DNA of 64,000 nucleotides from Phycisphaerales bacterium (GTDB lineage Bacteria > Planctomycetota > Phycisphaerae > Phycisphaerales > UBA1924), in the NCBI GenBank assembly GCA_007693785.1, contig RECY01000035.1:1-64000 (forward strand). Reading direction: 5' to 3'. Below, piece by piece: positions 44,913 through 62,326 of the stretch. Numbering within the stretch: the first letter of the stretch is position 1; each line of letters starts with the position of its first letter. The notes beneath the pieces are model-generated. The model saw only the letters and a program-made list of their open reading frames with translations, ran no database searches and was not told the DNA's origin. Made by a program: the position numbers and the translations under genes.

Positions 44913-45263
44913 GCCGAGCCCGCGTTCGCCTCCCGCATCGGGCTCACAGCGACATCCGCCACGGACGCCGCCTGGTGGCGAGGCCCCACGCCACCCAACG
45001 ACCCGGCCCTCTTCCGCGGGCAGCGCCTCCGCGACGTTCGTTTCCCATCGCAGAAGGGCGTGGCGCTCGATCTCGTCGCCGGCATCATGAGCCGAGAACG
45101 CACCGGCGACAAAGTCACGTTTGCGCTGGCTGCGATGTTCGACGGAGCCGCGACCTCGTTCGACTTTGAACAATTCCCAGCCGAGCGTATCGCACCCCGA
45201 CCCACCTCCGCACATTTCCCCATCCTCAACACCGTGGACGGTCTCGCTGGACGCGATTTTTGA
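44913..45263 (+). pseudogene. In-frame 3' remainder of the MauE-pseudopilin gene
   Basis: Reading on from the TAA in the same frame gives AEPAFASRIGLTATSATDAAWW, then NDPALFRGQRLRDVRFPSQK and FPILNTVDGLAGRDF, ending at TGA 45263. It completes a pseudopilin C-terminal domain, and RDVRFPSQKGVALD looks like the expected continuation. No start codon with ribosome site is visible near 44913. A single T-to-C or similar change at the TAA would restore a 405-residue protein. Sequencing error is also possible. Confidence 0.65.
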
Positions 45264-45282
45264 TCACGGCTTGGCGACGCCC

Positions 45283-46266: not shown

Positions 46267-46382
46267 GGGTGGCCCCTTCATGCAGCGGGGTTCAGAGAGA
46301 AGCCCGCCGGGGCGGACCGGGCGGACAAGGGCAGGATGGTAGTGCGGGGGCGCCAGCCGAGCCGGGTGCCGGAAATCAGCGA

Positions 46383-46510
46383 TGTGCCACTGACCTTGTC
46401 TGCAAGGTCAGTGCTCCGGGCCGCCTCCAAACCCTTCATGTCGCTCCCATCGATACCTGGAAGAGAAGAAGATCCGGAGCACTGACCTCTCGGAAGAGGT
46501 CAGTGGCACA
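46383..46510. repeat. REPIN-like palindrome R2
   Basis: The ends are TGTGCCAC (46383-46390) and GTGGCACA (46503-46510). The left arm folds as ACTGACCTTG...CAAGGTCAGT and the right as ACTGACCTCT...AGAGGTCAGT. Between them is a 50-60-base spacer with CCGGGCCGCCTCCA, which also occurs in copy R3. It occupies the gap between kbl and sucD (both minus). There is no T-tract, so a simple terminator is unlikely. Confidence 0.85.
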
Positions 46511-46534
46511 GCATAGCCGGACCATGCACCCGCC

Positions 46535-47848
46535 TCAGAGCTTCTTCAACGCGTCCACCAGCGTGTCGATGTGCTCGGTCGTGTGGGCGGCCGAGATCTG
46601 CACCCGCAGCCTCGCGTGCCCCTCCGGCACCACGGGATACCCGAAGCCGATCACGAAGACGCCCAGCTCCAGCAGCCGCTTGCTCATCGCGATCGCCTTC
46701 GCCGTGTCGTGCACGATGATCGGGCAGATCGCGGTCGGGCTGTCGAGCACGTCGAACCCGGCCGCCTTGATCTGCTGCCGCGCATAGGCCGTGTTGTCGC
46801 GGAGCGCGCGCACGCGCTCGGGCTCGCGGAGCAGGATCTCGATCGCCTTATTCGCGCTGCACGCGACGGTGCAGGGCAGGGCGTTGCTGAAGAGCGTCGG
46901 GCGACCGCGCTGGACGGTGAGCTCCGTCCCCCGCTTGCTCCCGGCGATGAACCCGCCGGCCCCGCCGCCGAGGGCTTTGCCGAGCGTGCCGGTGAAGAAG
47001 TCGACCTGACCGAGGGCGGGGTTGAAAGTAGAGGAAGCCCCCTCCGTCGGCTGCGCCGCCACCTCCCCCGCCGGGGCGGGGGAGGGCAGGGGCGGGCACA
47101 TGCCGAAGTGCTCGTGCGTGCCGCGTCCGGTCGGGCCCATGACGCCGTGCCCGTGGCTGTCGTCCACGACCAGCATCGCCTCGAATTCGTCGCAGAGCGT
47201 GCGGATCGCCGGGAGGTCGGCCAGGTCCCCCTCCATGCTGAAGACGCCGTCGGTCACGACCCAGACCTGCCCGGTGACGTCCGGGTTGTCCCGCGCCTGC
47301 TGGAGGCGTTCGCGGAGGTGGTTCAGGTCGTTGTGCTTGTAGACGGTCTTGTGCAGGCCCTTCTTGATGATCGCGGCGAGGCGGATGCCGTCGATGATGC
47401 ACGCGTGGTTCAGCTCGTCGCTGATGATGCAGTCGCCGGGCTCGCCGAAGGTCGGGTAGAGGCTCTCGTTCGCGGTCCAGCAGCTCACGAAGCTGTAGCT
47501 GCTCTCGGTTCCCATGTAGCGGGCGATGGTCGCTTCGAGCTGCTCGTGGCAGTCGAAGGTGCCGCAGATGAAGCGGACGCTCGCCGTCCCCGCGCCGTAC
47601 TTCCGCAGCCCCTCCACCCCGGCCTCGACCACCTCCGGGTGGTTCGCCAGCCCGAGGTAGTTGTTGGAGCAGAAGCAGAGGACGTCGTGGTCCTTGCCGT
47701 CCGCGCCCCCCTCGCCCCGCATGCGGACGACCGGGCCCATCGGCCCGAGCAGCGTGTGCAGGCGCTTGTACTGCCCGCCATCGTCCAGCGTGCGGAGCAC
47801 GTCGTCGGTGCGGACCTCGAACGGGCGAACGGCGGCGGTCGTCGGCAT
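46535..47848 (-). CDS. kbl: Glycine C-acetyltransferase with in-frame repeat insertion
   Basis: A 437-residue enzyme from ATG 47848 (GGAG about 6 bases upstream; a less likely ATG lies at 47863). It has the PLP enzyme signatures LCFCSNNYLGLANHPEV, VVDDSHGHGVMGPTGRG and FTGTLGKALGG with the PLP lysine. It splits 2-amino-3-oxobutyrate with CoA into glycine and acetyl-CoA, after threonine dehydrogenase (tdh at 60980). Between THEHFGMC and QVDFFTGT, where homologues are continuous, it carries about 29 extra residues (PPLPSPAPAGEVAAQPTEG...NPALG, residues 252-280). Two thirds of them come from a palindromic repeat also found at 49804. Confidence 0.95.
   Translation of the reverse strand: MPTTAAVRPFEVRTDDVLRTLDDGGQYKRLHTLLGPMGPVVRMRGEGGADGKDHDVLCFCSNNYLGLANHPEVVEAGVEGLRKYGAGTASVRFICGTFDCHEQLEATIARYMGTESSYSFVSCWTANESLYPTFGEPGDCIISDELNHACIIDGIRLAAIIKKGLHKTVYKHNDLNHLRERLQQARDNPDVTGQVWVVTDGVFSMEGDLADLPAIRTLCDEFEAMLVVDDSHGHGVMGPTGRGTHEHFGMCPPLPSPAPAGEVAAQPTEGASSTFNPALGQVDFFTGTLGKALGGGAGGFIAGSKRGTELTVQRGRPTLFSNALPCTVACSANKAIEILLREPERVRALRDNTAYARQQIKAAGFDVLDSPTAICPIIVHDTAKAIAMSKRLLELGVFVIGFGYPVVPEGHARLRVQISAAHTTEHIDTLVDALKKL
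47041..47095 (-). repeat. Palindromic element inserted in frame in kbl
   Basis: The centre is CCTCCCCCGCC-GG-GGCGGGGGAGG at 47062-47085, an 11-bp perfect inverted repeat. It is flanked by CCTCCGTCGGCTGCGCCGCCA, a sequence that matches the complement of 49825-49847 almost base for base. It encodes PPLPSPAPAGEVAAQPTEG within Kbl, without breaking the frame. Confidence 0.75.
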
Positions 47849-47936
47849 CACTCCACACTCCATTTCAGGGCCAATCAGACCCGCGATTGTAAAGCCCCCA
47901 CCCGCCCGGGGCGGGACCGTGGGGTAACCCGTCTAT

Positions 47937-48230
47937 ATGCCTAAAAGAATTCCGAATCCGTCGCGGCTGCGGGCGTTCAAGGCGGTAGACTTGCCCTGTA
48001 TGGGCTGGCGATTCTTTCGAGGTCGGGACGTGCGCACCGCGGGCGAGCGGATGCGTGATGAGCACTCCGCGTGGCTGACGGCCGCGATGATGAGCGGGCG
48101 GCCGTACCCACGCATCCCCACAAAAGGCGTCTCCCGAGGCGGGTACGACCCCCTCCGCGCCCGCCCCGGCGGGGCCGATCGGGCGGCCGCTTGGTGGCGC
48201 GGGGCCCTCGACCGCGTCGACGACGCCTGA
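47937..48230 (+). CDS. Small hypothetical protein
   Basis: A 97-residue basic, soluble product starting MPKRIPNPSRLRAFKAV and ending WWRGALDRVDDA. Residues 20-60 (MGWRFFRGRDVRTAGERM, WLTAAMMSGRPYPRIPTKG) look like coding sequence with normal GC3 bias. There is no clear ribosome site and no recognised family. It is divergent from kbl and followed by repeat R3. It could be a chance frame. Confidence 0.5.
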   Translation: MPKRIPNPSRLRAFKAVDLPCMGWRFFRGRDVRTAGERMRDEHSAWLTAAMMSGRPYPRIPTKGVSRGGYDPLRARPGGADRAAAWWRGALDRVDDA

Positions 48231-48277
48231 AGCCGCGCCCGGACACCGACCCATGCCGCTGACCCGTGACGCCACCC

Positions 48278-48422
48278 TGTGCCACTGACCTTGTCCGCGA
48301 GGTCAGTGCTCCGGGCCGCCCTCCAGCCTCTCCCCCGCTCCCGTGTTGTGAGCCCTGGCAGGAGGAGCAACGGAGACGAGGAGATCAGGAGCACTGACCT
48401 CTAGGAAGAGGTCCGTGGCACA
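48278..48422. repeat. REPIN-like palindrome R3
   Basis: Ends TGTGCCAC and GTGGCACA. The left arm is ACTGACCTTGTCCGCGAGGTCAGT and the right is ACTGACCTCTAGGAAGAGGTCCGT, in which one A-C mismatch breaks the stem. The spacer shares CCGGGCCGCC with R2. It lies in the 364-bp gap after the small protein gene. The rest of the gap (48423-48594) shows no gene or site besides the AGAGGAGA region before 48595. Confidence 0.85.
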
Positions 48423-48594
48423 TCCGGAGGTGCGAATTCGGCGCGGATTCCGTCCGATCACCCCGCCCCGGTTCTGGACCCGGGCTGATCCGTGGCACAA
48501 GATCGTCCGATCGCGGAAGATGGGCGAACCCGTCGCCCGGACGGTGCGTTGGCGTGCCAGAGATGTGCGTGTGACAGAGGAGATCGGAACCACC

Positions 48595-49563
48595 ATGCCC
48601 GACGTGCAGAAGACGACCATCAACCGCCCCTGGGCGATCAAGAGCGCCATCATCGGGCTCGCGTTTCTGGCGTTCGGGCTCTGGGGGTTGTACGACGCGC
48701 TGGTCGCGTACCCGAAGCGTGGCGTGGGGTACGCGCTCAAGGCCGAGCAGCTCTACTTGCAGGCCGCCCACGATATGGGGCGCATCCTCCGCGCCGGTGT
48801 CGAGACCCCCGACGCCGAGCTGACCGAGCTCCGTCGGCGGGCGGCGGCCGGCGAGCAGCTCAACGCGCGTGAAGCGCAACTGATGGAGTGGCTCGAGGCG
48901 CTGGGCACGGTCGGGCGTCTGGACCCGGCGTTCACGGATCTGCCGCGCGATCGCGGGGACGACCCGGTGGGGGCGGCCGTCCGCGCTGACGCCGAGGGCG
49001 CGGATCCCGAACCGGTCCCGGTCCGGATCGACGGCGGGGTGAGCCGCCTGCAGGAGCTCAACACGTACTGGGCGACGCGGACCCCGCCGAAGAAGCTCCG
49101 CGGGTACGACATCCCGAGCCAGTGGGTGATCCTCGCGATCGGCGGCGGCGTGGGGCTCTACGTCGGGTTCCTGTTCTTCAAGGTCGGCACGACGACCTAC
49201 CGCTGGGAGCCGGGCGCGAAGGCGCTGACCCTCCCCGGCGGGGCCACCATCCTGCCGAGCGACCTCGACGACGTGGACAAGCGCAAGTGGGAGAAGTTCC
49301 TCGTCTTCCTGAAGATCCGCGAGGGGCACGAGACGCTCGGCGGGCAGGAGATCAAGCTCGACCTCTACCGCCACGCCCCGCTCGAAGACTGGGTGCTGGA
49401 GATGGAGCGCGAGCGCTTCCCCGAGCGGGCGAGCGAGGAGGCCTCGGTGGAAGCCGAGGGGGAGACCGAAGAACTCCACCGCCCGACCGACGGCGCCCCG
49501 GCCGCCTCCGACACCGGCTCCCCGGTCATCCCCAGCGATGAGGACGCGACACGAGGGGCGTAA
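48595..49563 (+). CDS. Two-helix membrane protein, function unknown
   Basis: A 322-residue protein from ATG 48595, with AGAGGAGA about 13 bases upstream. An N-terminal helix (SAIIGLAFLAFGLWGLYDALVAY), a soluble helical section and a second helix (WVILAIGGGVGLYVGFLFF) bracket an extracytoplasmic domain of about 120 residues. A C-terminal cytosolic PH-like domain with TTYRWEPGAKALTLPGG and LPSDLDDVDKRKW follows, then an acidic tail. The fold is not assigned. It is placed alone between two REPIN-like elements. Confidence 0.7.
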   Translation: MPDVQKTTINRPWAIKSAIIGLAFLAFGLWGLYDALVAYPKRGVGYALKAEQLYLQAAHDMGRILRAGVETPDAELTELRRRAAAGEQLNAREAQLMEWLEALGTVGRLDPAFTDLPRDRGDDPVGAAVRADAEGADPEPVPVRIDGGVSRLQELNTYWATRTPPKKLRGYDIPSQWVILAIGGGVGLYVGFLFFKVGTTTYRWEPGAKALTLPGGATILPSDLDDVDKRKWEKFLVFLKIREGHETLGGQEIKLDLYRHAPLEDWVLEMERERFPERASEEASVEAEGETEELHRPTDGAPAASDTGSPVIPSDEDATRGA

Positions 49564-49602
49564 AACCCGCCCACCGCCCTGTGCCACAAGCGCTGTCCCA
49601 AT

Positions 49603-49783
49603 TGTGCCACTGACTTTGTCTGCAAGGTCAGTGCTTCCCATTCTGATGCTTCTTCACGGCTCGTTTGGGAGTTGGAGAAAAAGGGGAGCACGGCTTGGAT
49701 CAGAATCCAAGCCGTGGCACCGGAGAAAGGGCAGGGACAGGGCGGCCGGGAGTACGGACCTCTCGGAAGAGGTCCGTGGCACA
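49603..49783. repeat. Composite palindromic repeat R4 with three hairpin units
   Basis: Left end TGTGCCACTGACTTTGTC folds on AAGGTCAGT. A middle unit at 49686-49721 has ACGGCTTGGAT-CAGA-ATCCAAGCCGT ending in GGCACC. The right unit reads ACGGACCTCT-CGGA-AGAGGTCCGT ending GTGGCACA. The right unit has both partners of one base pair changed relative to other copies (T-A to G-C), a compensatory change. A further GTGCCACAAGCGCTG at 49581 may be a remnant of another unit. The 390-bp gap holds no gene. Confidence 0.8.
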
Positions 49784-49803
49784 TCCAGCCTCCCACTCCC
49801 TCG

Positions 49804-49850
49804 CTCCCCCGCCCGGCGGGGGAGCTGGCGGCGAAGCCGACTGAGGGGAC
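49804..49850 (+). repeat. Second copy of the GC palindrome found in kbl
   Basis: CTCCCCCGCC-C-GGCGGGGGAG at 49804-49824 is followed by CTGGCGGCGAAGCCGACTGA. It matches the complement of the kbl insert (47041-47085) with only a few differences over about 44 bases. It is intergenic here, which shows that the sequence inside kbl is a repeat and not simply a loop of the enzyme. Confidence 0.75.
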
Positions 49851-49953
49851 CTCCCCACCCTCCCGCTCCTACAACTCCTTGCCCAACCCGCGTGACACAA
49901 GGCTCACCGGAATCCGAAGAATCTGAGCCGAGGGCGTGCCGCCGCCTGCACCC

Positions 49954-50466
49954 ATGACGATCTTCGCCGCCATCCTGGTCACGCTCGGCTGCCTGCTCGG
50001 CGTCGTGCTCACGCTCATCACGCTCCCCGGGACGTGGGTGATGCTGCTGATCGCGCTCGCCTGCTGGGCGTGGCGTCCGGAGTTGTACACGTGGCACCCG
50101 CTGGTGGCGGCGTTGGTGCTGGCGGTGCTGGCGGAGGTCGCCGAGTTTCTGGGCTCGGCCGTCGGGGCGAGCCGAGCGGGCGGGACGCGGTCGGGCGTGA
50201 TCGGCGCGGTCGTGGGTGCGATCATCGGGCTGATCGTGGGGTCGATCTTCCTGCCGATCCCGATCGTCGGCTCGATCGTGGGGGCGGTGGTCGGCGCGGG
50301 GCTCGGCGCGGGGGCCGGGGAGCGGACGCTCGGGAAGCAGACCTGGCACGCCTCGTGGACGATCGGCGTCGGGGCGGCCCGCGGGCGGCTGATCGCGATC
50401 GTGGTCAAAACGGCCTTCGCGGGCGCGATGGCGGTGGTGCTGGTCGCGGCCGCGTTCTGGCCCTGA
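49954..50466 (+). CDS. DUF456 family membrane protein
   Basis: A 170-residue membrane protein from ATG 49954; GTG 49936 is an in-frame alternative. Three to four hydrophobic regions are present (AAILVTLGCLLGVVLTLITLPG, VVGAIIGLIVGSIFLPIPIVG, LIAIVVKTAFAGAMAVVLVA), and a central Gly-rich tandem of G-x3-G motifs (VIGAVVGAIIG, IVGAVVGAGLGAG). This glycine-zipper pattern and the LPGTWVMLLI start match DUF456. Its role is unknown; such proteins are widespread in bacteria. Confidence 0.8.
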   Translation: MTIFAAILVTLGCLLGVVLTLITLPGTWVMLLIALACWAWRPELYTWHPLVAALVLAVLAEVAEFLGSAVGASRAGGTRSGVIGAVVGAIIGLIVGSIFLPIPIVGSIVGAVVGAGLGAGAGERTLGKQTWHASWTIGVGAARGRLIAIVVKTAFAGAMAVVLVAAAFWP

Positions 50467-50574
50467 GCCCTCCGCCCCGCGCACCGTCGCGCGGGTGGAC
50501 GTATTCTGCCCTCTCGCAGGGCGGCGACGGATCTCGCCCCGCGCACCCCGCCCAGGAGGAGGCCCCGAGAGCGC

Positions 50575-52152
50575 ATGCCACCCAACCGCACCGACGCGCT
50601 GCTGGACGACACCCCCACCCCCGAACGCCCGAAGGCGGGTCATTCGGCCCCGAGCGGTGCGCCAGCCGCGAGCGAGCACGACACCCGCCGCCCCCAGCCC
50701 GCCAGGGGTCGATCTCGCGAGTCGCACGTCGGCGTCAAGCACTTCGTGCTCGACACCAACGTCCTGCTGCACGACCCCAACGCCCTGTTCGTCTTCCACG
50801 AGCACCACGTCGTCATCCCCTACCCGGTCATCGAGGAGCTCGACTCGATGAAGCGGCGGGAGGATGACGTCGGGCGCAACGCGCGGGAGTGCATCCGCCA
50901 CCTCGACCGCCTCCGCAACCTCGGCAAGCTGACCGAGGGCGTGACCTGGGGCGACGCGAGCATCCGCGTCAACACCCCCGCCGGGACCGTGCCCGACGAC
51001 GGCAAGACCGGCACCGTGCGGATCGACGTCGCGGACTACGACCGCCCGCCGGCGATCCGGCACGACTCGCCCGACAACCGGATCATCGCCGTCGCGTGGC
51101 ACCTGCACCAGGACCCGAAGCACCACGCCGTGTTTGTCAGCAAGGACCTGAGCGCGCGCATCAAGAGCGACTCGCTCGGCATCCGCACCGAGGACTTCGA
51201 GAACCAGAAGGTCGACGCCGACCGCCTGTACGCCGGCTACGCGACGTGCGTCTGCCCGGGTGACCTCATCGACGAGCTCTACCGCGAGAAGCTGCTCCCG
51301 ATCGAGAAGCTGATGAAGGCGACCGAGCTGCAAACGCCCGACGGGCACCCGCTCAGCAGCGAGCCCGTGCCCAACCAGTTCATCGTGCTGCATGATCTCG
51401 AGGACGAGGCCCACTCCGGGCTCGCCCGCCGCCTGGCCGACACCGACACCGTCGTCCCCGTCACCGGCCCGCGCAAGCCGACGTTCGGGATCATGGCCCG
51501 CAACGTCCAGCAGACCATGGCGCTCGACCTGCTGCTCGACGACGACATCAAGATGGTCACCCTCCTCGGCTCGGCCGGCACGGGCAAGACGCTGCTCGCC
51601 GTCGCCGCGGGCATGCACAAGGTCTTCAACGAGGAACGCTTCGACAAGCTCCTCGTCGCACGCCCCATCATGCCGCTGGGGCGCGACATAGGCTACCTCC
51701 CCGGCGACAAGGACGAGAAGCTCAGCGTCTGGATGCAGCCGATCTTCGACAACCTGACCTACCTCCTCTCCACCCGCGGCGGCGGCGGCTCCACGCCCGA
51801 CAGCTACAGCCCCGAGCAGCGCATCAACAAGCTGATGGCCGACGGCAAGCTCGTGCTCGAGCCGCTGACCTACATCCGCGGGCGCAGCATCCCGCACCAG
51901 TTCATGATCGTCGACGAGGCGCAGAACCTGACCCCGCACGAGATCAAGACGATCGCCAGCCGCGTCGGCGAGGGGACCAAACTCGTGCTGACCGGCGATG
52001 TTGGGCAGATCGACAACCCTTACCTCGATAGCTCGAGCAACGGGCTCAGCTACGCGGCCGAGAAGCTCAAGGGCCTCGGGCTCGTCGGGCACGTCACACT
52101 CGCCAAGAGCGAGCGGAGCGAGCTGGCGTCGATCGCCGCCAGCCGGCTGTAA
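50575..52152 (+). CDS. PhoH-like ATPase with N-terminal PIN domain
   Basis: A 525-residue protein from ATG 50575; an AGGAGGAGG tract lies about 14 bases upstream. A PIN-type nuclease domain comes first (FVLDTNVLLHDPNALFVF near residue 57, VIEELDSMKRR, DNRIIAVAWHLH). The PhoH ATPase follows, with Walker A LLGSAGTGKTLLA, Walker B FMIVDEAQNLTPHEIKT, and the C-terminal VGHVTLAKSERSELA. PIN-PhoH (PhoH2) proteins are thought to be RNA-unwinding, RNA-cutting enzymes. No antitoxin gene precedes it, unlike the mycobacterial phoAT-phoH2 pair. Confidence 0.92.
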   Translation: MPPNRTDALLDDTPTPERPKAGHSAPSGAPAASEHDTRRPQPARGRSRESHVGVKHFVLDTNVLLHDPNALFVFHEHHVVIPYPVIEELDSMKRREDDVGRNARECIRHLDRLRNLGKLTEGVTWGDASIRVNTPAGTVPDDGKTGTVRIDVADYDRPPAIRHDSPDNRIIAVAWHLHQDPKHHAVFVSKDLSARIKSDSLGIRTEDFENQKVDADRLYAGYATCVCPGDLIDELYREKLLPIEKLMKATELQTPDGHPLSSEPVPNQFIVLHDLEDEAHSGLARRLADTDTVVPVTGPRKPTFGIMARNVQQTMALDLLLDDDIKMVTLLGSAGTGKTLLAVAAGMHKVFNEERFDKLLVARPIMPLGRDIGYLPGDKDEKLSVWMQPIFDNLTYLLSTRGGGGSTPDSYSPEQRINKLMADGKLVLEPLTYIRGRSIPHQFMIVDEAQNLTPHEIKTIASRVGEGTKLVLTGDVGQIDNPYLDSSSNGLSYAAEKLKGLGLVGHVTLAKSERSELASIAASRL

Positions 52153-52223
52153 CGCCGGGCGCGTGCGATGGCGCACCGGGGCACGTTTGCGTGCGCTGAC
52201 GAGCGCGGGCGCGCCGCCCGCGG

Positions 52224-52919
52224 TCAGCCCTGCTCGTCCTGGAGCGGGAGGGCGGTTTCGAGGCGGATCCGCTCGCGCTGGAAGAACTCGCGCCAGGTCG
52301 GGTCGGTCTCGATGAGCGTGCCGCGTTTGACGTGGTTCAACGCTTCCCGGTTCACCAGGCGCAATCGCTGCGAGCTCAGCGCGTACCCGCGGATCGCGTC
52401 GAGCCAGTTGCGGTCACGCGCCAGCGCCTGGTTAAAGTAGCGCAACGCGTCCCGATCGTGACCGGAACGCTGCCAACACAGGGCGATGTTGGTCACCGGA
52501 CGCGGGTCCCGTGGCTCCACGTCCGCGGCGCGGGTCAGATACTGCACCGCGTCCAGATAGTTCTGCTGGTGCATCAGCAGCACGCCTAGGTTGTTCAGGC
52601 TCACGAACAGGTTCGGGTCCAGGCTCAGGCTCTCGGCGTACAGGCGTGACGCCTCGTCGATCTTGCCCCGACGCTCGGCGTGGCGCGCCTGCTCGGCCAG
52701 CTCGACCGCGCGGCGCGTCCGCTCCGCCGGCTCGAACGCGCCGGGCGACGCCTCCGGACGCGGGCCCGACGTCGAGCCGCACCCGACCAGGCACGCACCC
52801 CCCGCGAGCAACGCCGTCGCGAGCGACACGCCCGCGACGCGGCGCCTCTGACGGGCCCGGGCGGACGCGCGCCCGTCTGCCTGTGTGCGGTCGGTGATCC
52901 CGTCGGCTGCCTTGCTCAC
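52224..52919 (-). CDS. TPR lipoprotein of the secretion cluster
   Basis: A 231-residue protein from GTG 52919, overlapping the previous stop by GTGA. It has a lipoprotein signal (SLATALLAGGACLVGC) with the lipid Cys near residue 47. Three TPR-like repeats follow (ASRLYAESLSLDPNLFVSLNNLGVLL, AVQYLTRAADVEPRDPRPVTN, ALRYFNQALARDRNWLDAIRG). As the last gene of the pseudopilus operon it may be a PilF/pilotin-like factor that helps secretin assembly, but only position and domain type support this. Confidence 0.75.
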   Translation of the reverse strand: MSKAADGITDRTQADGRASARARQRRRVAGVSLATALLAGGACLVGCGSTSGPRPEASPGAFEPAERTRRAVELAEQARHAERRGKIDEASRLYAESLSLDPNLFVSLNNLGVLLMHQQNYLDAVQYLTRAADVEPRDPRPVTNIALCWQRSGHDRDALRYFNQALARDRNWLDAIRGYALSSQRLRLVNREALNHVKRGTLIETDPTWREFFQRERIRLETALPLQDEQG

Positions 52920-53482
52920 GGCGTGCGCTCCAGTCGGATGAACTCCACGATCAGCTGCCAGCGGCTCTGCCGAACGCTCAGGTTGAAACTGTACACCCGC
53001 ATCCCGGGCACGCGATCGGTCACCGCCGCCACCCAGCCCAGGATCGACCCGATCGACGCGTCCGACAGCGTGTAGGTGTACCGACGCTCCCGCAAGCCCG
53101 GGCGAACGTCCCGCGTCGAATCCCTCGGGAAGGGGATCTCGATCCCGAACTCGCCGCCGTACCGCTGCAGACGCGCCAGGATGTCCGAGATCGGCTCGGT
53201 CTCGCTTTCGCTCCCGGCCTCCTCGGCCCCGGCGCGGAGCGCCGAGAGGTCCGCCGACGCCTGCAACACCCGAGCCGCACGCGAACGCTCCCGCTCCACA
53301 CGCCCCTGCTCGCTCGAGAGCGAGAGCCACTGCACGCCCGCATACAGCGACGCCCCCGCGAGCAGCACGCCCGCGAGCAGCACCGGCCCGCGCGGGCGGT
53401 TCCGACGCGCCCCCTGCGCCGCCAGGCCCGAGAGCGTCAGACGCGCGTCCTCGTGCTGGGTTGGATCGGGTGTCGTGCTCAT
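52916..53482 (-). CDS. GspM/PilO-like pilus or secretion platform protein
   Basis: About 188 residues if started at ATG 53482; the frame is open to an ATG at 53563, which would overlap the preceding gene. One N-terminal membrane helix (GPVLLAGVLLAGASLYAGVQWL) and a coiled region lead to a ferredoxin-like domain (IGSILGWVAAVTDRVPGMRV, FNLSVRQSRWQLIVEFIRL). This is the architecture of GspM and PilO, which stabilise the inner-membrane platform. The cluster position after a GspL/PilM-like gene supports it. Confidence 0.65.
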   Translation of the reverse strand: MSTTPDPTQHEDARLTLSGLAAQGARRNRPRGPVLLAGVLLAGASLYAGVQWLSLSSEQGRVERERSRAARVLQASADLSALRAGAEEAGSESETEPISDILARLQRYGGEFGIEIPFPRDSTRDVRPGLRERRYTYTLSDASIGSILGWVAAVTDRVPGMRVYSFNLSVRQSRWQLIVEFIRLERTP

Positions 53483-53540
53483 CGGATCGGCTCGTGCCTC
53501 CGCCGCCCCGGGGTCCTTCGGGCCGGCTCGTTCAGCGTGA

Positions 53541-55229: not shown

Positions 55230-56011
55230 TCCTGCCCTCTCTGCTGGGCTTCCAGGCGGGCCCGTTCCCGCGCGATGTCGGCGGCCTGCTGCGCCCGCTG
55301 CTCGCGGATCAGGCGCGCCTGCGTCGCGGCGTCCATGTTCTCCGTCGAGGACATCGTCGCCCCGCGACCCACGCGACCGGTCGCGGCATTGGACCCCGCG
55401 GGCACCCGCGGCATGGGCGCTGGGGAGGCCGACGCGACCGACACCGACGATGACGACGAACGCTCGGCCCGTGTCACCCGGCGCTCCCGCCCGTTCGACC
55501 GCACCACGATCGCGTCGTCCTCGACCGAGACCAACTCCACACCGCCCACGCTCCGCCCGACCTGGAGCAGACGCTGCGACCCGTCGATCACCACGATCGC
55601 CCAGACCGCGCCCCCGGTCCCCCGGGCCGAGCCCAGGAACCGGACGCCCTCACGCTCCGGCGGGGCGGGCGGGGCCTCCGGCGCCTCGCCCGACACCTCG
55701 CTCGTGTCGCCCGTCTCGGGCTCGGGCGGGACCGGGGCGTTGTGCGTCATGCTGAGCGGGAACGCCAGGTCGGCGATATCGACCCGTCGCGGCGCTTCGG
55801 CCCGGGGGGGCGTGGGCAGGGCCGTGGGCTCGAAACGCTCGGGGAGCGGCTCCACCGGGGCGATCGGCGTTGGGACCCCGAAGACCGCCGCGCCCGCGAC
55901 GCCCGCGAGGAGCACCAGCGCCAGCACACGCCCGACGCCGGCCCATCGCCGGGCCTCGGCGTGCGTCCACGACCCCTTCGGTCGCCCGCGATGTCCACGT
56001 CCGGCGTGCAT
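55226..56011 (-). CDS. GspC/PilP-like inner-membrane protein
   Basis: A 261-residue protein from ATG 56011. After a cytosolic stretch there is one membrane helix (VLALVLLAGVAGAAVFG), a proline-rich linker, and a small beta domain (VRFLGSARGTGGAVWAIVVID, LLQVGRSVGGVELVSVEDDAIVV). The beta unit resembles the HR domain of GspC or PilP, which bind the secretin. The C-terminus is a Glu/Arg coiled coil. It lies between the GspK-like and GspL-like genes. Confidence 0.65.
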   Translation of the reverse strand: MHAGRGHRGRPKGSWTHAEARRWAGVGRVLALVLLAGVAGAAVFGVPTPIAPVEPLPERFEPTALPTPPRAEAPRRVDIADLAFPLSMTHNAPVPPEPETGDTSEVSGEAPEAPPAPPEREGVRFLGSARGTGGAVWAIVVIDGSQRLLQVGRSVGGVELVSVEDDAIVVRSNGRERRVTRAERSSSSSVSVASASPAPMPRVPAGSNAATGRVGRGATMSSTENMDAATQARLIREQRAQQAADIARERARLEAQQRGQD

Positions 56012-56053
56012 CAACCCCTGACCTTCCCGGCGCGCTCAGGCCGCCCGCTCATC

Positions 56054-57013
56054 CTACCGCGACCCCGCACGCCCCGTTCCAAATCCGCCCGCCGGGCCCG
56101 AGAAGAAGGCGTCGTCGATCCCCCCCTGCCCGGGCTCCACGCGTTCCCACGTCATCAGCACCGACTGCTCGTGCATCGTTTGCCCCACCTGCTGCCCCCC
56201 GCGACGGGCGAGCATCAGCAAAGCCCGGTACCGCTCGGGCTCGGGCGGCGACCCGTCGCGAGCGGCCCGGCCCGCGAGGCGCTCCCCCATCACCGCGCCC
56301 CCCGCCCCGGGCTCGACCGTCACCAGCACCTCCCACAGGATCGGGCGGTCGGTGACCAGTCGCAGCAGGGCGGCGTGCTGGGTCGCGGGCATTCCCGCGG
56401 CGGTCGCCGCCTGCACGATCGAGGCGCGCGTCAGCGCCCCCCGGGCGCGGAGCTGGACGATCTCGCTCGCGAAGTCCGACCCGGTGCGGGCGTCGCCGGA
56501 GACGGCTTCGCCGACGGCGGCGAGGACCTGTTCCGAAGCCGTCCACACGCTGACGTCCGGCGGGCCGACGACGCGGAGATCACCGGAGACGCCGAACGCG
56601 CCGACCATCGCGTCGAGATCGGCCTCGCCCGTGCGCACGCCGTAGGCCTCGGCGATCCGCGTCGCCTCCGCGAGGGCGTCGCCGGTGAGCCCGTCGGCGG
56701 TGGTGAGGATCCCGCCCTGGCGGTCGCGGAGGGCGGCGCGGAGGACGGTGCCGTCGTCGAGCGCGACGACCAGCACTTCCCGCCAGGCGTCCGAAGCCCC
56801 GCCGGCGGCGAGTCGCTCGGGGCGGATCGACCGGAGCGAGGCGTCAAGCAGCTCGCGGATGCCCCGGGCGACGTGCTCGGCGCGGTAGGCCTCGACGCGC
56901 CGGGCCGCCGTGAGATGGTCGGCCCCGGTGCGCGAGAGCATCACCGTGATCCCGAGCCCGAGCACGATGACGACGATCAGGACCAGGGGCATCGCGAAGG
57001 CGCGTCGGCTCAC
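56054..57013 (-). CDS. GspK-like minor pseudopilin
   Basis: A 319-residue protein from GTG 57013, overlapping the GspJ-like stop (GTGA). A hydrophobic N-terminal helix (FAMPLVLIVVIVLGLGITVML) is followed by LTAARRVEAYRAEHVARGI, as in GspK. The body includes SAM-like helical repeats (ADGLTGDALAEATRIAEAYG). The usual Glu-5 of pseudopilins is missing, as in known GspK. It caps the pseudopilus tip with GspI and GspJ. Size fits GspK (about 300-330). Confidence 0.75.
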   Translation of the reverse strand: MSRRAFAMPLVLIVVIVLGLGITVMLSRTGADHLTAARRVEAYRAEHVARGIRELLDASLRSIRPERLAAGGASDAWREVLVVALDDGTVLRAALRDRQGGILTTADGLTGDALAEATRIAEAYGVRTGEADLDAMVGAFGVSGDLRVVGPPDVSVWTASEQVLAAVGEAVSGDARTGSDFASEIVQLRARGALTRASIVQAATAAGMPATQHAALLRLVTDRPILWEVLVTVEPGAGGAVMGERLAGRAARDGSPPEPERYRALLMLARRGGQQVGQTMHEQSVLMTWERVEPGQGGIDDAFFSGPAGGFGTGRAGSR

Positions 57014-58050
57014 GTCTGCCCCCCGCCGCCGGGTTGCGCGGGCGGCGTCACCCCGCGCCCCTCGCCGCCACCACCACCGCCCGGGTTGGCGCCGTTCGGG
57101 TTGAGGCCGTTCGGGGCTTCATCCGGTGTCCGTCGTTCTTCGCCGGAGAGCCAGCCGACTTCGAAGAGCCAGTTGGCGTAGGTGCCGCTGGCGGTGCGGA
57201 GCTCCATCTCGATGAACGCGGGGAGCTCGTTCGCCTGCCAGGCCTCGAACTCGGTGACCCGCTCGCGGTTGGTGAAGACGCGCCACTCGCAGAGCACGAG
57301 CCCGGTGACGAGCGGGTAGGCCCCGAGGAGGGCGGCTGCGGCGGGGTCGAGATCCTCGGGCGGGGCGTCGCCCCCGAGGGCGGCGCCGGTCGCGTCGAGC
57401 TCGGTCGCGGCCGACACGCCGACGGGGCGGTACCAGAGCGTCCAGGTCGAAGGATCGTCCGGGCGGGCGTCGGGGGCGCGGGGCTCGGGGCGGAGCTCGA
57501 AGGCGATGCGTCGCGGCGTGCGCACGCCGATCAGCTCGACCTCGCCCGGATCCCGCCACCCGCGCGCGGAACTGGCGGCTGCGGCCTCGACGGCGCGACG
57601 GCGCGCCCAGTCCGCCGCGAGCGCATCGATCCCCGGGAGCGGCGGGCGGTTGACCACCACCTCCAGGCGCTGCACGCCGCCGGACCGCTGCATCGCGCGC
57701 AGCAACGCGCGATCCGGCGCGAGGCTGATCCGCGGGGGCTCGTCCGGACGCTCGGCCCCGACGGGCGCCCCCACCGCGGTCGCGCCGGTCGCCATGTGCA
57801 GGCTGTTGAACACCGTCTGCATCGCCCGGTGGGTGCGCTCGAGCTCCAGGCTCGAGAGCGACCGCTCGGCCTGCTGGCGGTCCGCGCGCCCGATCGCCGC
57901 GATCATCGCGACCGCGCCCGCCGCGACCAGCGCCCCCAGCGCCGAAGCGAGCGCAACTTCCAGCAGCGTGAACCCGCGACGCGCACGGGGATGCGTGCGG
58001 ACCGGATCGCGGCGTCGCCCGGCGCGGGGCGTGGCACGGTTGGTGCGCAT
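57010..58050 (-). CDS. GspJ-like minor pseudopilin
   Basis: A 346-residue protein from ATG 58050, sharing its A with the stop of the GspI-like gene (TGATG). The prepilin cleavage signal is HPRARRG|FTLLEVALASALGALVAAG. A long beta-rich body and a Gly/Pro-rich C-terminus follow (PNGLNPNGANPGGGGGGEG). Size and gene order (after GspI, before GspK) support GspJ. Confidence 0.78.
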   Translation of the reverse strand: MRTNRATPRAGRRRDPVRTHPRARRGFTLLEVALASALGALVAAGAVAMIAAIGRADRQQAERSLSSLELERTHRAMQTVFNSLHMATGATAVGAPVGAERPDEPPRISLAPDRALLRAMQRSGGVQRLEVVVNRPPLPGIDALAADWARRRAVEAAAASSARGWRDPGEVELIGVRTPRRIAFELRPEPRAPDARPDDPSTWTLWYRPVGVSAATELDATGAALGGDAPPEDLDPAAAALLGAYPLVTGLVLCEWRVFTNRERVTEFEAWQANELPAFIEMELRTASGTYANWLFEVGWLSGEERRTPDEAPNGLNPNGANPGGGGGGEGRGVTPPAQPGGGGQT

Positions 58051-58670
58051 CAGCGTCTCCCGTTGCTGGGCGCGGGGCTGATGACTTCGAGCAGGCGTCG
58101 GATGCTCTCGGCGTCGCCGTCGCCGATGAACCCGCGGATCGAGTCGGGGTTGCGCATGGGCAGCTGGTCGTAGATGCGCGTGAGGGTGACCGCCCCGGAG
58201 CCCGGGGTGTCGGGGCTGGGGTTGCCGCCGGAGTCGGGGCTGAGCCAGACGGTGACGATGAGGCGTCGGAAGCGGTCGATCGCCGATCGTGCGCCGGGCT
58301 CTTCTTCGCCGAGGGGGATCAGGGCGATGGGCTGCTGCTGGAGGCGCCAGTTGTAGAGGCGCCCGTCGTAATCGATGGGCAGGTTCTGGCTCGGCATGCT
58401 CTCGGGATCGTCGAGGTGCATGACGATGAGCCGGTGGGCGAGTTCGGCCGCGGCGAGCTGGCTGCGGGCGCGGGCCTCGCCGCCGCGGACCGCGCCGAGG
58501 GCCGCCGAGAGCGTCGCGGCGAGCAGCGCGAGCAGCGTGGTCGCCGCGACGACTTCGAGGAAGCTCATGCCGCGTCTTCGGGCGGCGTGGCGGGGCGCAC
58601 GCGCGGGGCGTGCGCGTCTCGTTCGCCCTCGCGCGGGGCCCGGCGCGGGGGTGTGCGAGGCGAGGGTCAT
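58050..58670 (-). CDS. GspI-like minor pseudopilin
   Basis: A 206-residue protein from ATG 58670. After a basic leader the prepilin signal is RRRG|MSFLEVVAATTLLALLAAT, in which Glu is at mature position 5. A short beta domain follows (LYNWRLQQQPIALIPLG, FRRLIVTVWLSPDSGG). The order GspG-I-J-K is that of type II secretion operons, with GspH not found. The start is 4 bases after the GspG-like stop. Confidence 0.78.
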   Translation of the reverse strand: MTLASHTPAPGPARGRTRRARPARAPRHAARRRGMSFLEVVAATTLLALLAATLSAALGAVRGGEARARSQLAAAELAHRLIVMHLDDPESMPSQNLPIDYDGRLYNWRLQQQPIALIPLGEEEPGARSAIDRFRRLIVTVWLSPDSGGNPSPDTPGSGAVTLTRIYDQLPMRNPDSIRGFIGDGDAESIRRLLEVISPAPSNGRR

Positions 58671-58674
58671 GGGA

Positions 58675-59112
58675 TCAGTTCCCGTTGTTGATGGTCCAGA
58701 CGTCGATGTCGTCATCGGTGCCGCCCTCGCCGTCGGGGCCATAGCTGAGGAAGACGTAGGGCTGCCCCTGCACCATCGACTCCGGGCGATAAAAATACGG
58801 CGTGCCCCACGCGTCCTCGAAACGGACGGTGGACTGCAGGTACGCCTGCGTGCCCTGCTGGAGCACCGCGAGGCTCTCCGGCGGACGCCCGCGCCCCTCC
58901 TGGGCCATGTAGCTCTGGATCGCGTTGTTGATGATCTGCATGTCGCTCTTGGTCGCCTGGACACGGGCGCGCTCGCTCTGCCCGAGCACGTTGACCGCCG
59001 CGACCGCGCCGAGGATCCCCAGGATCACCAGCACGAGCGTCAACTCCAGCAAGCTGAAGCCACCGGGGCGGCGACGCGAACGACGCCGAGGGACGCGAAG
59101 CGACTGAGCCAT
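58675..59112 (-). CDS. GspG-like major pseudopilin
   Basis: A 145-residue protein from ATG 59112. The prepilin signal is RRPGG|FSLLELTLVLVILGILGAVAA, with Glu 5. ATKSDMQIINNAIQSYMAQEG and WGTPYFYRPE follow, and the C-terminal DGEGGTDDDIDVW has the calcium-site pattern of GspG. It forms the shaft of the pseudopilus. The GspF-like gene lies upstream on the same strand, separated by a 449-bp repeat-filled gap. Confidence 0.88.
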   Translation of the reverse strand: MAQSLRVPRRRSRRRPGGFSLLELTLVLVILGILGAVAAVNVLGQSERARVQATKSDMQIINNAIQSYMAQEGRGRPPESLAVLQQGTQAYLQSTVRFEDAWGTPYFYRPESMVQGQPYVFLSYGPDGEGGTDDDIDVWTINNGN

Positions 59113-59297
59113 GATCGAGATCCTCATTCACCAGGAACGGCCCGAGGCCGAGCCGATTGCACGCCGCGATTCAAAAACCCGCTCCGATAGGCCTATGCCG
59201 AGCCCCGACAACGGGTTGCGATCCCCCGAACACTCCCCGTGCCCGGAACACCCCAGCCCGGTCACGAAAGTGTACGTGCGATGGCGGCCCACGGTGA

Positions 59298-59439
59298 CCG
59301 GTGCCCCGGAAACGCGGAGCCGCCGCGGCGCAGCTTTTCCGGGTCGGGTGAGTCTTACGTGTTCATTGAAGCCGTCTGCACCCCGGCATGGAAAAGCTCC
59401 GCCGACCGGGACGGTCGGCTCCGCATTTCCATGGCACCG
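59298..59439. repeat. Nested inverted repeat R5a (inner form of R1)
   Basis: CCGGTGCCCCGGAAACGCGGAGCC at 59298-59321 faces GGCTCCGCATTTCCATGGCACCG near 59416-59439, with inner arms AGCTTTTCCGGG and CCGGCATGGAAAAGCTCC. It is homologous to 531-663 of R1 but has no outer CACAGCTC arms. It sits between the pseudopilin operon and the GspF-like gene. Confidence 0.8.
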
Positions 59440-59470
59440 AAGACCGAGAGCGTTGAAGCGAGAGAAGGCC

Positions 59471-59561
59471 AGGAAGCACTGACCTCTTATAAGAGGTCAG
59501 TGGCACATCCGGAGCCAGCCCTCTCGCCCCTCTCACTCCCCCTAGTGCCCAATGCCTTCCC
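59471..59561. repeat. Single REP arm with heptamer tail R5b
   Basis: GCACTGACCTCTTATAAGAGGTCAGTGGCACA is a single hairpin unit, with the right-hand polarity. It is followed by a purine/pyrimidine stretch (GGAGCCAGCCCTCTCGCCCC) and CCTAGTGCCCAATGCC, a heptamer tail. The tail reaches the stop of the GspF-like gene. The segment is an inverted copy of 62069-62170. No gene is present in the 449-bp gap 59113-59561. Confidence 0.8.
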
Positions 59562-60827
59562 CTACTCCATCGCCCCCGCGCTCGTGATCATCGGGATCAT
59601 GATCGAGAGCACCAAGCTCCCGATGATGAGGAACATCACCACGATCAGCGCCGGCTCCAGCCCGGCGAGCAGGCGGGCGGTGCGGGTGTCGACCTCGGCC
59701 GCCGTGTCGTCGGCCAGCGTGTCGAACGCCCGTTCCAGATCCCCCGCGCGCTCGGCCGCCACCAGCAGCTTCCGCGTCGCCAGCGGCAGGGCCGTCACGT
59801 CCTCCACCAACTGGCGGAACAACCCGCCCTCCACCAGGCGCGACCGCAGCTTCTGGAGCTGCGCCCGCATCTGGCGGTGGCTCACCGCCGTCGCCGAAAC
59901 CTCCAACGCGTCCGCCAGCGGGATCCCGCTCCGCGTCATCGCGGCCATCACCGCGAAAAACCGCGCCGACTCCTGCGCCAGCACCACCTCACGCACACCC
60001 GGGATAAACCGCGTCGCCCGCGTCAAGAGCCCCGCGACCGCGCGACGCCCGATGATCAGCCCCACCACCCCCAACGCGACCGCACCGCCCGCCAGCAGCG
60101 CGTTGTCCCGCAGCCACTCCCCCGTCGCGAGGGTTGCTCGCGAGTAGAACGGGAGCGTCGCCCCCTGCTCCACGAGCGACCCCAGGATCTGCGGCACCAG
60201 CACCGTCACCATCAGCACGCTCACGCCGAGGCTGATCGTCAGCACGATCATCGGGTAGATCAGCAGCGTCGCCGCCTTGCCCGCGACCGCCAGACGCCGA
60301 CGGATCGTCTTCGCGAGCTGCTCGCACGACCCGGCGAGGTCGCCCGTCCGCTCCGCGGCCTGATAGATCGCGACCGTCACCTTGTCGAAGATGCCCGTCC
60401 GCTGGCAGGCGTCCGAGAAACTCGCCCCCCCCGCGACGTCGCGACGGATGCGGTCGACGATCGGGCGCGTCCGCGCCGTCACGACCGAGCCGGCGACTTC
60501 GAGCGTTTCCACCAAAGGCACGCCGCGGGAGAGGAGCTGCCCGATCTGCTCGTTCAGCGCGGCCTGGTCCTTCGCGGGCAGCTTGGTCGTCTCCGACCCC
60601 GCGAGCCAGGCCGGGGCCTTGTAGGCGCGGGTGAGGATGAGTCGTTCGCGTCGGAGGCTGTCGGCCAGCGCCCGCTCGCTGGTCGCCTGGCGCACGCCGA
60701 GGCGGCGGCCGCCGGTCGGCGAGGCGGCGATGTAGAAGTAGCCGCTGGGCCCAGCGGGCGCGCGCCGCCGCGCGGGGGCCGCCCCCCGGGATCCGCCCGC
60801 GCCCGTTCTGGCGGCCAACCGGCTCAT
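59562..60827 (-). CDS. GspF/PilC-like inner-membrane platform protein
   Basis: A 421-residue protein from ATG 60827. Two copies of the T2SSF domain are seen: the first near residues 75-205 (IGQLLSRGVPLVETLEVAG, AERTGDLAGSCEQLAKTIRR) and the second near 275-400 (FFAVMAAMTRSGIPLADALEV, VAAERAGDLERAFDTLADD). Membrane helices follow each, the last being IVVMFLIIGSLVLSIMIPMI. It anchors the assembly ATPase. An N-terminal Ala/Arg-rich extension is present. The ATPase gene (GspE/PilB) is not in the window. Confidence 0.88.
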   Translation of the reverse strand: MSRLAARTGAGGSRGAAPARRRAPAGPSGYFYIAASPTGGRRLGVRQATSERALADSLRRERLILTRAYKAPAWLAGSETTKLPAKDQAALNEQIGQLLSRGVPLVETLEVAGSVVTARTRPIVDRIRRDVAGGASFSDACQRTGIFDKVTVAIYQAAERTGDLAGSCEQLAKTIRRRLAVAGKAATLLIYPMIVLTISLGVSVLMVTVLVPQILGSLVEQGATLPFYSRATLATGEWLRDNALLAGGAVALGVVGLIIGRRAVAGLLTRATRFIPGVREVVLAQESARFFAVMAAMTRSGIPLADALEVSATAVSHRQMRAQLQKLRSRLVEGGLFRQLVEDVTALPLATRKLLVAAERAGDLERAFDTLADDTAAEVDTRTARLLAGLEPALIVVMFLIIGSLVLSIMIPMITSAGAME

Positions 60828-60979
60828 CGGGATCACTCTACCGCCCACGGGGGCGGGCAGATTCGTCGCGGGGGTTGGCGGGCGTTGATTCCGTTCTTCG
60901 CGGGTCTGAGAATCCTGCCCACGCGCTGCCCGTTGCACCGGGCGTCGCGGAGGCCGCATCTGGAAGAGGAGCCCCGCCC

Positions 60980-62068
60980 ATGCCCGCCGCCCAGGCCGAC
61001 GCCGATCCCGCGACCACGCCCGCCTCGGGCGCGATGCGGGCCCTGACCAAGCACCACGCGGGCGAGGGCCTGAAATTCCATACCGACAAGGCGATCCCGG
61101 AGCCCGGGCCGACCGAGGTCCGGATCAAGGTGCAGAAGGTCGGGATCTGCGGCACCGATCGGCACATCTGGGAGTGGGACGACTGGGCCGCCGGGCGCAT
61201 CCCGGTCGGGATCGTGACCGGGCACGAGTTCGTCGGCGTGGTGGACAAGATCGGCTCGGCCGTCACCAGCACCGAGCCCGGGCGGCGTGTCTCGGCCGAG
61301 GGGCACATCACGGCCGGGCTCGACTTCAACTCCCGCACCGGCAACGCCCACATCGCGCGCGACACCCAGATCCTCGGCGTCGACCGCGACGGGATCTTCG
61401 CCGACTACGTCGTCGTCCCCGAAGCCAACGTCTGGCCCGTGCACAAGGAGATCGCCGACAAGCACGCCGCGATCTTCGACCCGCTCGGCAACGCCGTCCA
61501 CACGGTGATGGAGGCAGGCGTGAGCGGGAAGAGCGTGCTGATCTCGGGCGTGGGGATCATCGGGCTGATGGCGGTGACGGTCGCGAAGGCCGCGGGCGCG
61601 GGGCGGATCTTCTGCACCGACATCAACCCGCCGCGCCTGAAGCTCGCCAAGAAGCTCGGCGCGACCGAGGCGTTCAACGTCGCCGAGCACAAATCATGGA
61701 TCGACGAGGTCCGCAAGGCGACCCGCGGCGAGGGCGTCGACGTGCTCTGCGAGATGTCCGGCGCCCCGGCCGCGATGGACCAGGGCTTCCGCGCCCTCCG
61801 CAACGGCGGGCGCGCCGCCCTGCTCGGGCTGCCGGCGAAAGAGTTCGCTTTCGACTTCAACCAGCACATCATCTTCAAGGGCTGCACCGTGCTCGGCATC
61901 AACGGGCGGCGCATGTGGGACACGTGGTACCAGATGGAGGAGTTGCTCCTGAGCCGCCGGCTCGAGCTGGACGACATCATCACCCACGAGTTCCCGATCG
62001 AGCAGTTCGAAAAGGCCTTCGACACGATGCGGAGCGGCGACGGGATCAAGGTGCTGATGAATCTGTGA
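60980..62068 (+). CDS. tdh: L-threonine 3-dehydrogenase lacking the structural zinc cysteines
   Basis: A 362-residue enzyme from ATG 60980 (AGAGGAG about 9 bases upstream). Catalytic zinc ligands are kept: VGICGTDRHIWEWD (Cys 57) and GHEFVG (His 82, Glu 83). FDPLGNAVHTVMEAG, GVGIIGLMAVTVAKA and the TDH-specific GINGRRMWDTWYQMEEL support threonine dehydrogenase over other zinc alcohol dehydrogenases. The four cysteines of the structural zinc lobe are all absent: 112, 115, 118 and 126 are Ala, Asp, Ser and Ala. It makes 2-amino-3-oxobutyrate, the substrate of Kbl. Function should be intact if the lobe is stabilised otherwise. Confidence 0.88.
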   Translation: MPAAQADADPATTPASGAMRALTKHHAGEGLKFHTDKAIPEPGPTEVRIKVQKVGICGTDRHIWEWDDWAAGRIPVGIVTGHEFVGVVDKIGSAVTSTEPGRRVSAEGHITAGLDFNSRTGNAHIARDTQILGVDRDGIFADYVVVPEANVWPVHKEIADKHAAIFDPLGNAVHTVMEAGVSGKSVLISGVGIIGLMAVTVAKAAGAGRIFCTDINPPRLKLAKKLGATEAFNVAEHKSWIDEVRKATRGEGVDVLCEMSGAPAAMDQGFRALRNGGRAALLGLPAKEFAFDFNQHIIFKGCTVLGINGRRMWDTWYQMEELLLSRRLELDDIITHEFPIEQFEKAFDTMRSGDGIKVLMNL

Positions 62069-62137
62069 GGGGGAAGGCATTAGGCATTGGGCAATAGGCA
62101 ATAGGGGGAGGAGAGGGGCGAGAGGGATGGCTCCGGA
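62069..62137 (+). repeat. Heptamer tail left of R6
   Basis: Directly after the tdh stop come GGCATTA-GGCATTG-GGCAATA-GGCAATA units of seven bases, then a purine-rich stretch (GGGGGAGGAGAGGGGCGAGAGGG) and GGCTCCGGATGTGCC, which joins R6. The whole is an inverted homologue of 59500-59561 beyond GspF. Confidence 0.8.
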
Positions 62138-62289
62138 TGTGCCACTGACCTCTTCCGAGAGGTCAGTGCTCCCCGGCTCCTCACACTTCAACGCTCCCCC
62201 GGGCACAAGCCCCGAACAACAAAAGAGCTCAAGAAAGAAAAGGAAGGGCGGCCAAAAGCACTGACCTTGCAGACAAGGTCCGTGGCACA
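62138..62289. repeat. REPIN-like palindrome R6
   Basis: Ends TGTGCCAC (62138-62145) and GTGGCACA (62282-62289). The left hairpin ACTGACCTCTTCCGAGAGGTCAGT and the right hairpin ACTGACCTTGCAGACAAGGTCCGT have different loops and stems. The right one is flanked by TCCCTCCCCCTCC and CCTAGTG-CCCAATG-CCTAGTC-CCTAGTG heptamers up to 62341. The heptamers overlap the end of the Hsp70 gene. Confidence 0.85.
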
Positions 62290-62326
62290 CTCAGAATCCC
62301 TCCCCCTCCCCCCTAGTGCCCAATGC

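Follow-up and report, generated by a model that had tools for sequence, protein, structure and literature searches.

A GTGC-tagged, REPIN-like repeat population in a Phycisphaerales bacterium and the RAYT transposases that may mobilise it

The stretch of DNA analysed in the current work (referred to throughout as the window) comprises 64,000 nt from a Phycisphaerales bacterium (GenBank assembly GCA_007693785.1, contig RECY01000035.1, positions 1 to 64,000) and contains several copies of a dispersed palindromic repeat, here named family A. Family A is most probably a population of REPINs, being mobile single-strand elements of the non-autonomous kind, each built from two repetitive extragenic palindrome (REP) hairpins in inverted orientation, and it is likely moved by a REP-associated tyrosine transposase (RAYT) of a type linked to the 5' tetranucleotide tag GTGC. 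A REPIN consists of two REPs that are inverted with respect to each other and form one unit. The elements are probably mobile and have probably multiplied in the lineage of this bacterium, the genome of which is represented by an assembly of 3.06 Mb in 45 contigs (95.5% complete; the window is on contig C24).

An earlier inspection of the window, made from the letters alone (the sequence-only reading), had described a dispersed palindrome family and proposed a genome-wide search for its copies. Such a search, performed with the 14-mer TGTGCCACTGACCT, returned 123 matches at no more than one mismatch, 79 of which are exact, while the reversed 14-mer used as control returned none; the family is therefore real, and many of its copies lie elsewhere in the genome. 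Within the window, TGTGCCAC occurs at 13 sites (1.3 expected) and ACTGACCT at 14 sites (0.8 expected), counts that were reached by none of the shuffles; two of the TGTGCCAC sites, at 48492 and 49580, are without a hairpin in the hairpin scan. The own-sequence sample of 0.48 Mb consisted of the window and 38 stretches picked for containing family A copies, and densities in it are for this reason not genome averages. A fuzzy scan followed by a tag filter reduced 190 raw rows, many of which represented one hairpin counted again from the opposite strand, to 115 family A halves, and the 5 doubtful ones (indel or many mismatches) were dropped in repeat counts. In each half, a GTGC tag is combined with a 10-11 bp stem, a loop that is usually TCYG, and a tail resembling CTCC; GTGC precedes the stem in 108 of the 115 halves, and the loop is TCCG or TCTG in 90. 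A full copy of about 148 bp consists of two such hairpins in inverted orientation, with the 5' GTGC tags pointing outward.

What distinguishes the left from the right half is the stem top; the stem is ACTGACCTTG (TTG type) in 63 halves, ACTGACCTCT (TCT type) in 51 and of another sequence in one. Of the halves, 25 are unpaired and the others make up 45 inverted dimers with lengths of 70-305 bp (median 148); the dimers comprise 41 TTG+TCT, three TTG+TTG, one other+TTG and no TCT+TCT combinations, where random pairing would, by our own arithmetic, yield about one half heterodimers. When doubtful halves are dropped, 41 dimers are retained, being 38 TTG+TCT, two TTG+TTG and one other+TTG. Because 41 of the 45 dimers pair one stem of each type, the two types are the fixed ends of one element rather than products of drift. 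For 34 TTG+TCT dimers with a length of 128-165 bp, conservation exceeds approximately 80% for 35 nt inward from each end, with the exception of one loop position (56%), and then falls to about half; the mean pairwise identity over 30 nt is 0.88 and 0.92 for the two ends, and the spacer is pyrimidine-rich on the TTG side and purine-rich on the TCT side.

One RAYT was detected in the genome, as the only Y1_Tnp gene at an E-value of 0.001 or better, in a search that the sequence-only reading had also suggested; it is located on contig C13 and thus outside the window, from which that reading had correctly reported a RAYT to be absent. The gene is an open frame at C13:27098-27874 adjoining a recQ-like gene, and its product contains the motifs PEHVHL, YCHINP and WVWSS (HUH and Y...NP being present), scores 106 bits against the REP-associated tyrosine transposase model NF047646 (cut-off 80) and has TnpA-REP (4er8) as its best PDB match. 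As judged by eye, dimers of a second GTGC-tagged repeat, family B, stand on either side of this gene in one and the same orientation; the stems of family B are long, bulged and unrelated in sequence to the short and nearly perfect stems of family A. A 17-nt piece of family B has 71 genome matches at no more than two mismatches, some of which fall in both halves of one dimer.

The same transposase matches 99 of the 163 genomes of the bacterial family concerned (own genome included), and the surroundings of 70 RAYT loci of this bacterial family were inspected, 30 of which came directly from the search and 40 were selected from its list of matches, ten of the latter because the genome carries the 14-mer; some genomes contribute several loci. 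An unanchored scan for hairpins (perfect stem of at least 8 bp, loop of 3-15 nt, no more than 300 bp from the RAYT match) identified 163 hairpins (162 in a parallel count), and 102 of their 326 feet are GTGC; a GTGC-tagged hairpin is found at 43 of the 70 loci. The next commonest feet are AAGA (18), mostly opposite a GTGC or GTGG foot, and GTGG (14, at 5 loci). Hairpins more distant than 400 bp from the RAYT numbered 80 and had 20 GTGC feet, which fits dispersed repeats. Control loci gave no such hairpins: GTGC was absent from 29 aminotransferase gene loci (18 hairpins) and from the feet of the 18 hairpins found around 30 Y1_Tnp loci in a second family of this order, where some of the genes are not RAYTs. 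Considering up to two GTGC hairpins per locus (93 in all), the stem begins with C in 92 and with CAC in 69, and in a phylum-wide sample of 29 loci GTGC was found in 7 and GTGG in 8.

The closest counterpart of family A was encountered upstream of the RAYT of the related genome G167, where two hairpins with GTGC tags face each other, CACTGACCTC..AGAGGTCAGTG, with an unmatched top pair, and CACTGACCTTG..CAAGGTCAGTG; the two nearly match the ends of family A, and their loop is different. An ACTGACC-type hairpin is located downstream of this RAYT, and G059, a member of the G167 genus, carries a RAYT with a CACTGACCTTG stem and the tag GTGG. Because nearly the same two stems flank it, the G167 RAYT would be the best candidate for the type of mover of family A. 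When used as query of the own genome, it matched only the family-B-linked RAYT (45% identity), so that for family A, as an expanded population, no cognate transposase was detected, and an A-type RAYT of the own genome may either have been lost or be located in the missing ~5% of the assembly. Plasmids searched with this G167 protein as query yielded 8 records, all at less than 30% identity. The exact 14-mer is present in 17 of 301 genomes of the order, i.e. with 79 copies in the own genome and with no more than 8 in each of 16 of the 300 others. Among 26 of the relatives' loci that were read, many have a different stem top or no hairpin, and in a wider scan of contigs with at least 112 14-mer loci, 5 of the matches listed, in 4 loci, read as hairpins and the rest resemble chance matches.

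From this association we infer that a RAYT moves family A. The likely mover would be a RAYT (TnpA-REP), an HUH tyrosine transposase, which would bind the single strand in its folded state by way of tag and stem, cut nearby and join the element elsewhere between genes; in GTGC-linked RAYTs, the tag-reading segment would have changed, to W..G.G.D, alongside the tag. This motif was tabulated against the commonest tag of each locus for the 101 of 129 loci with a readable core protein (28 were left out, 22 of them from one searched family), and is present at 55/55 GTGC, 12/14 GTGG and 1/5 GTAG loci and at 18/27 loci with no tag. The motif thus appears to go with GTGC and GTGG as opposed to GTAG, for which the loci are few (n = 5). 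In an alignment to 4er8, the G167 and own RAYTs have one extra residue in the motif segment (WQPGGGFDRN in G167, WQPR-FWEH in 4er8). PMC6006769 links W94, Q95, E100, H101 and R104 of TnpA-REP to GTAG recognition; these residues map onto the W..G.G.D segment, which contacts GTAG in the Escherichia coli protein, and by this correspondence the motif would read the tag. Transposase and stem vary together, as RAYT protein distance and stem distance over 68 loci gave a Mantel r of 0.257, which none of 999 permutations reached (maximum 0.188). In REP-Mb, as described in PMC8266576, a change of tag shifted the cut dinucleotide by base complementarity, and the guide rule derived from this would predict GC or GA as the cut site for a GTGC tag.

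A number of results weigh against the interpretation of family A as a RAYT-mobilised REPIN population. Family B, and not family A, flanks the own RAYT, and no RAYT with family A flanks was detected in the 95.5% complete assembly. Across the relatives, the strict scan gave no GTGC hairpin at 27 of the 70 RAYT loci; it does not detect stems with bulges, of which family B of the own genome is an example. W..G.G.D is not specific to GTGC, given the GTGG and untagged loci that carry it. Neither of the predicted cut sites is prominent beside the 93 GTGC hairpins: GC is not enriched (3' 12 against a shuffled mean of 23.0; 5' 35 against 40.7), and GA is weak (3' 12 against a mean of 7.1, the maximum of 300 shuffles being 12; 5' 16 against 16.2), leaving a weak hint that GA may be the cut site of GTGC REPs; CT was counted 51 times against a shuffled mean of 43.5. 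Matches between the two flanks of family A dimers slightly exceed the shuffled mean at 2 bp (7 against 3.4) and at 3 bp (4 against 1.9). No empty site of a family A copy was found by joined-flank search in the 0.48 Mb of own sequence, the own genome being the one genome of the genus covered; the search gave 5 weak junction-spanning matches from three queries at 72-82% identity, and in two of these, as aligned, repeats that lie next to each other are joined across gaps or mismatched positions, neither being a clean empty site. Finally, most stem changes in family A copies break the pairing.

The last point bears directly on the sequence-only reading, in which stems that differ and stay paired had been taken to indicate selection for the folded form. 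That argument proved weak, as the covariation consists mostly of the fixed difference between the two ends. Within end types, 114 halves (1140 pair cells) contain 47 one-sided changes against 4 compensated two-sided ones, and all four of the latter are T to G at stem position 3; after removal of the 5 doubtful copies, 34 one-sided and 2 two-sided changes are retained in 1090 cells, where approximately 0.5 doubles are expected from arm frequencies. The excess of compensated changes in family A is therefore slight, and dispersed copies decay mostly without compensation. Pairing-preserving change is visible between families and between the RAYT-linked hairpins of relatives, and not as an excess within family A. 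The same reading's claim of recent activity would rest on the likeness of the ends and on the near absence of the 14-mer in relatives. Around the copy at 46383 gene order is not kept, as its CoA-ligase neighbour was found in 0 of 29 relative loci (no more than 1.5 kb on each side). What the sequence-only reading had called REPIN-like is borne out by the architecture, the copy number, the extragenic placing of the dimers and the link to RAYTs.

Mobilisation in trans by the C13 transposase is an unlikely alternative, in which family A would be moved by the only RAYT detected, the one bracketed by family B. The two families share the GTGC tag, and E. coli TnpA-REP, according to PMC8266576, acted on foreign REPs that have few features in common with its own. 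Against this stand the dissimilar stems of the two families, and the covariation of RAYT and stem sequence across loci, which suggests specificity.

Placing of the copies relative to genes, for which a home-made codon-usage gene call was employed on 34 dimers in 21 large stretches (one dimer lying at a stretch edge), bears on a second and very improbable alternative, according to which the repeats would be selected RNA signals, i.e. bidirectional terminators or mRNA stabilisers, and not mobile. All 33 placed dimers are intergenic, as are 17 of 17 single halves, and such a location and the strong hairpins would suit RNA signals; yet promoter-side gaps are not avoided, as the dimers are found in 16 tandem, 9 convergent and 8 divergent gaps, compared to 100, 34 and 54, respectively, among all 188 gaps of at least 100 bp. 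Moreover, no T-run follows the stems of the window copies (by eye), an Rfam search of 45000-64000 gave no match, and both the mostly uncompensated stem changes and the disparity in 14-mer copies between this genome and the 300 others argue against a conserved signal. That family A is a miniature inverted-repeat transposable element of a DDE transposon with TGTGCC terminal repeats is almost certainly not the case in spite of its terminal inverted repeats and short size, as an exact target duplication of 4-10 bp was found at 0 of 45 dimers, each end forms a hairpin of its own, and tagged hairpins of this form also flank the RAYT genes of relatives (no search for a DDE element with TGTGCC ends was made).

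Interpreted as a REPIN population, family A can be compared to described systems. It resembles the REPIN/REP and RAYT systems (PMC3733652, PMC6006769, PMC8266576) in its short hairpins with a 5' tetranucleotide, inverted dimers and more than 100 extragenic halves, and in that a single-copy RAYT is bracketed by one REP family and stem and RAYT vary together; it is unlike them in having GTGC in place of the known tags GTAG and GTGG, and in the W..G.G.D motif of the linked RAYTs, while the two RAYTs aligned here differ from E. coli TnpA-REP by the one extra residue. REP tags found in print are GTAG, GTGG, CGTC and CnGA (PMC3733652, PMC6006769), and the table rows available from PMC2817692 contain REPs headed by GTAG and GTGG. 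The GTGC tag of family A differs from these reported tags, and no GTGC-tagged REP was found in the accessible text of the literature on REPINs, RAYTs and planctomycete REPs, supplements and subscription papers (including the RAYT group paper cited by PMC6006769) being outside this scope. Class 3 TnpA-Y1, described from Planctomycetes, Acidobacteria and Proteobacteria with a CnGA foot (PMC6006769), shares the phylum, a hairpin-flanked RAYT-like gene and many copies, but the Y motif is here Y...NP, as in class 2, and not Y....Q, and the tag is GTGC and not CnGA. CGTC-tagged REPs (PMC3733652) are likewise tagged short hairpins among which heterodimers are common; they differ in tag and were described without an associated transposase, whereas GTGC hairpins flank RAYTs. 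TIRtrons/TIRYT (PMC3733652) are reminiscent of family B, in that a RAYT-type gene is flanked by longer, partly self-complementary repeats, and are unlike the short tagged hairpins of family A halves; the terminal inverted repeats of TIRtrons have a GGGGWSAS motif.

There is about an even chance that GTGC REPs and W..G.G.D RAYTs constitute a superfamily of their own that is widespread in Planctomycetota and in which the tag, the loop that reads it and perhaps the cut site changed together, as a natural retargeting from the known GTAG-CT pairing. The way in which RAYTs select and move their REPs has yet to be settled, and the biochemical work consulted stems from a few GTAG systems (PMC8266576). 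The GTGC group, with a different tag, a matching difference in the protein segment that would read the tag, and dozens of RAYT-stem pairs that vary naturally, offers material on which tag recognition and the guide rule can be tested, and scans keyed to GT[AG]G, as described in PMC6006769, may overlook one class of REP populations.

The five loci listed by the sequence-only reading all contain family A sequence, being four inverted dimers and one single half. The dimers at 46383-46510, 48278-48422 and 49603-49783 (all on the + strand) have the TTG hairpin left and the TCT hairpin right, with GTGC tags outward at the first, one mismatch in each stem at the second, and the stems ACGGACCTCT/AGAGGTCCGT at the third, which was recognised by hairpin and dimer scans. 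The dimer at 62138-62289 (- strand) is in reverse orientation, i.e. TCT left and TTG right. When folded as single-stranded DNA, three of these copies beat their shuffles, with z-scores of -7.30 (46383), -5.25 (48278) and -3.07 (62138, folded as 62140-62287) and with 0, 0 and 2 of 200 shuffles, respectively, folding equally well; two of the three form one long hairpin and the third forms two separate end hairpins. Inside the 49603 dimer, a pattern match at 49703-49720 (- strand) covers a portion of a hairpin of family A2 (GTGC tag, ACGGCTTGGAT stem, TCTG loop), the pattern of which has 19 genome matches at no more than two mismatches. The single half, at 59472-59507 (- strand, hairpin scan), is of TCT type with a TATA loop and is adjoined by a family B half at 59387-59438 (+ strand; family B match, end placed by eye), so that this locus is a hybrid pair of one family B and one family A half.

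A relative of family A had also been listed at position 498. What was found there by eye is a GTGG-tagged CACAGCTC inverted repeat (498-693, no strand assigned), which does not belong to family A and encloses a dimer of family B, the family that brackets the C13 RAYT (531-663, + strand); the borders of both were placed by eye. A further window match to the 17-nt piece of family B, with two mismatches, is located at 11374-11390.

Other repeats were observed in the vicinity of family A copies. Short CCTAGTGCCCAATGCC-type repeats are present near two of the window loci (62070-62110, 59540-59560 and 62310-62340, by eye), and a stretch like TCCGGATCTGGCCCTTTGGCCCTTT adjoins the TCT end on the outside of several dimers (for example L150:7674, L156:11407 and L160:9104). 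A palindrome CCCTCTCCCG..GGGAGAGGG with an adjoining CCGGGGTGAG recurs in L150, L157, L158, L165, L166 and L181, near some family A copies. A further palindrome, family C (CCTCCCCCGC..GCGGGGGAGG), occurs 27 times in the 0.48 Mb picked for family A copies (for example at L147:12677, L158:7442 and window position 47062), 15 times within 300 bp of a family A dimer. Its copy at approximately 47015-47098 lies in frame in the aminotransferase gene (46535-47863, - strand), to which it adds about 28 residues; this insert is missing in 29 of 29 relative aminotransferase loci, many of which carry other inserts at the same loop.

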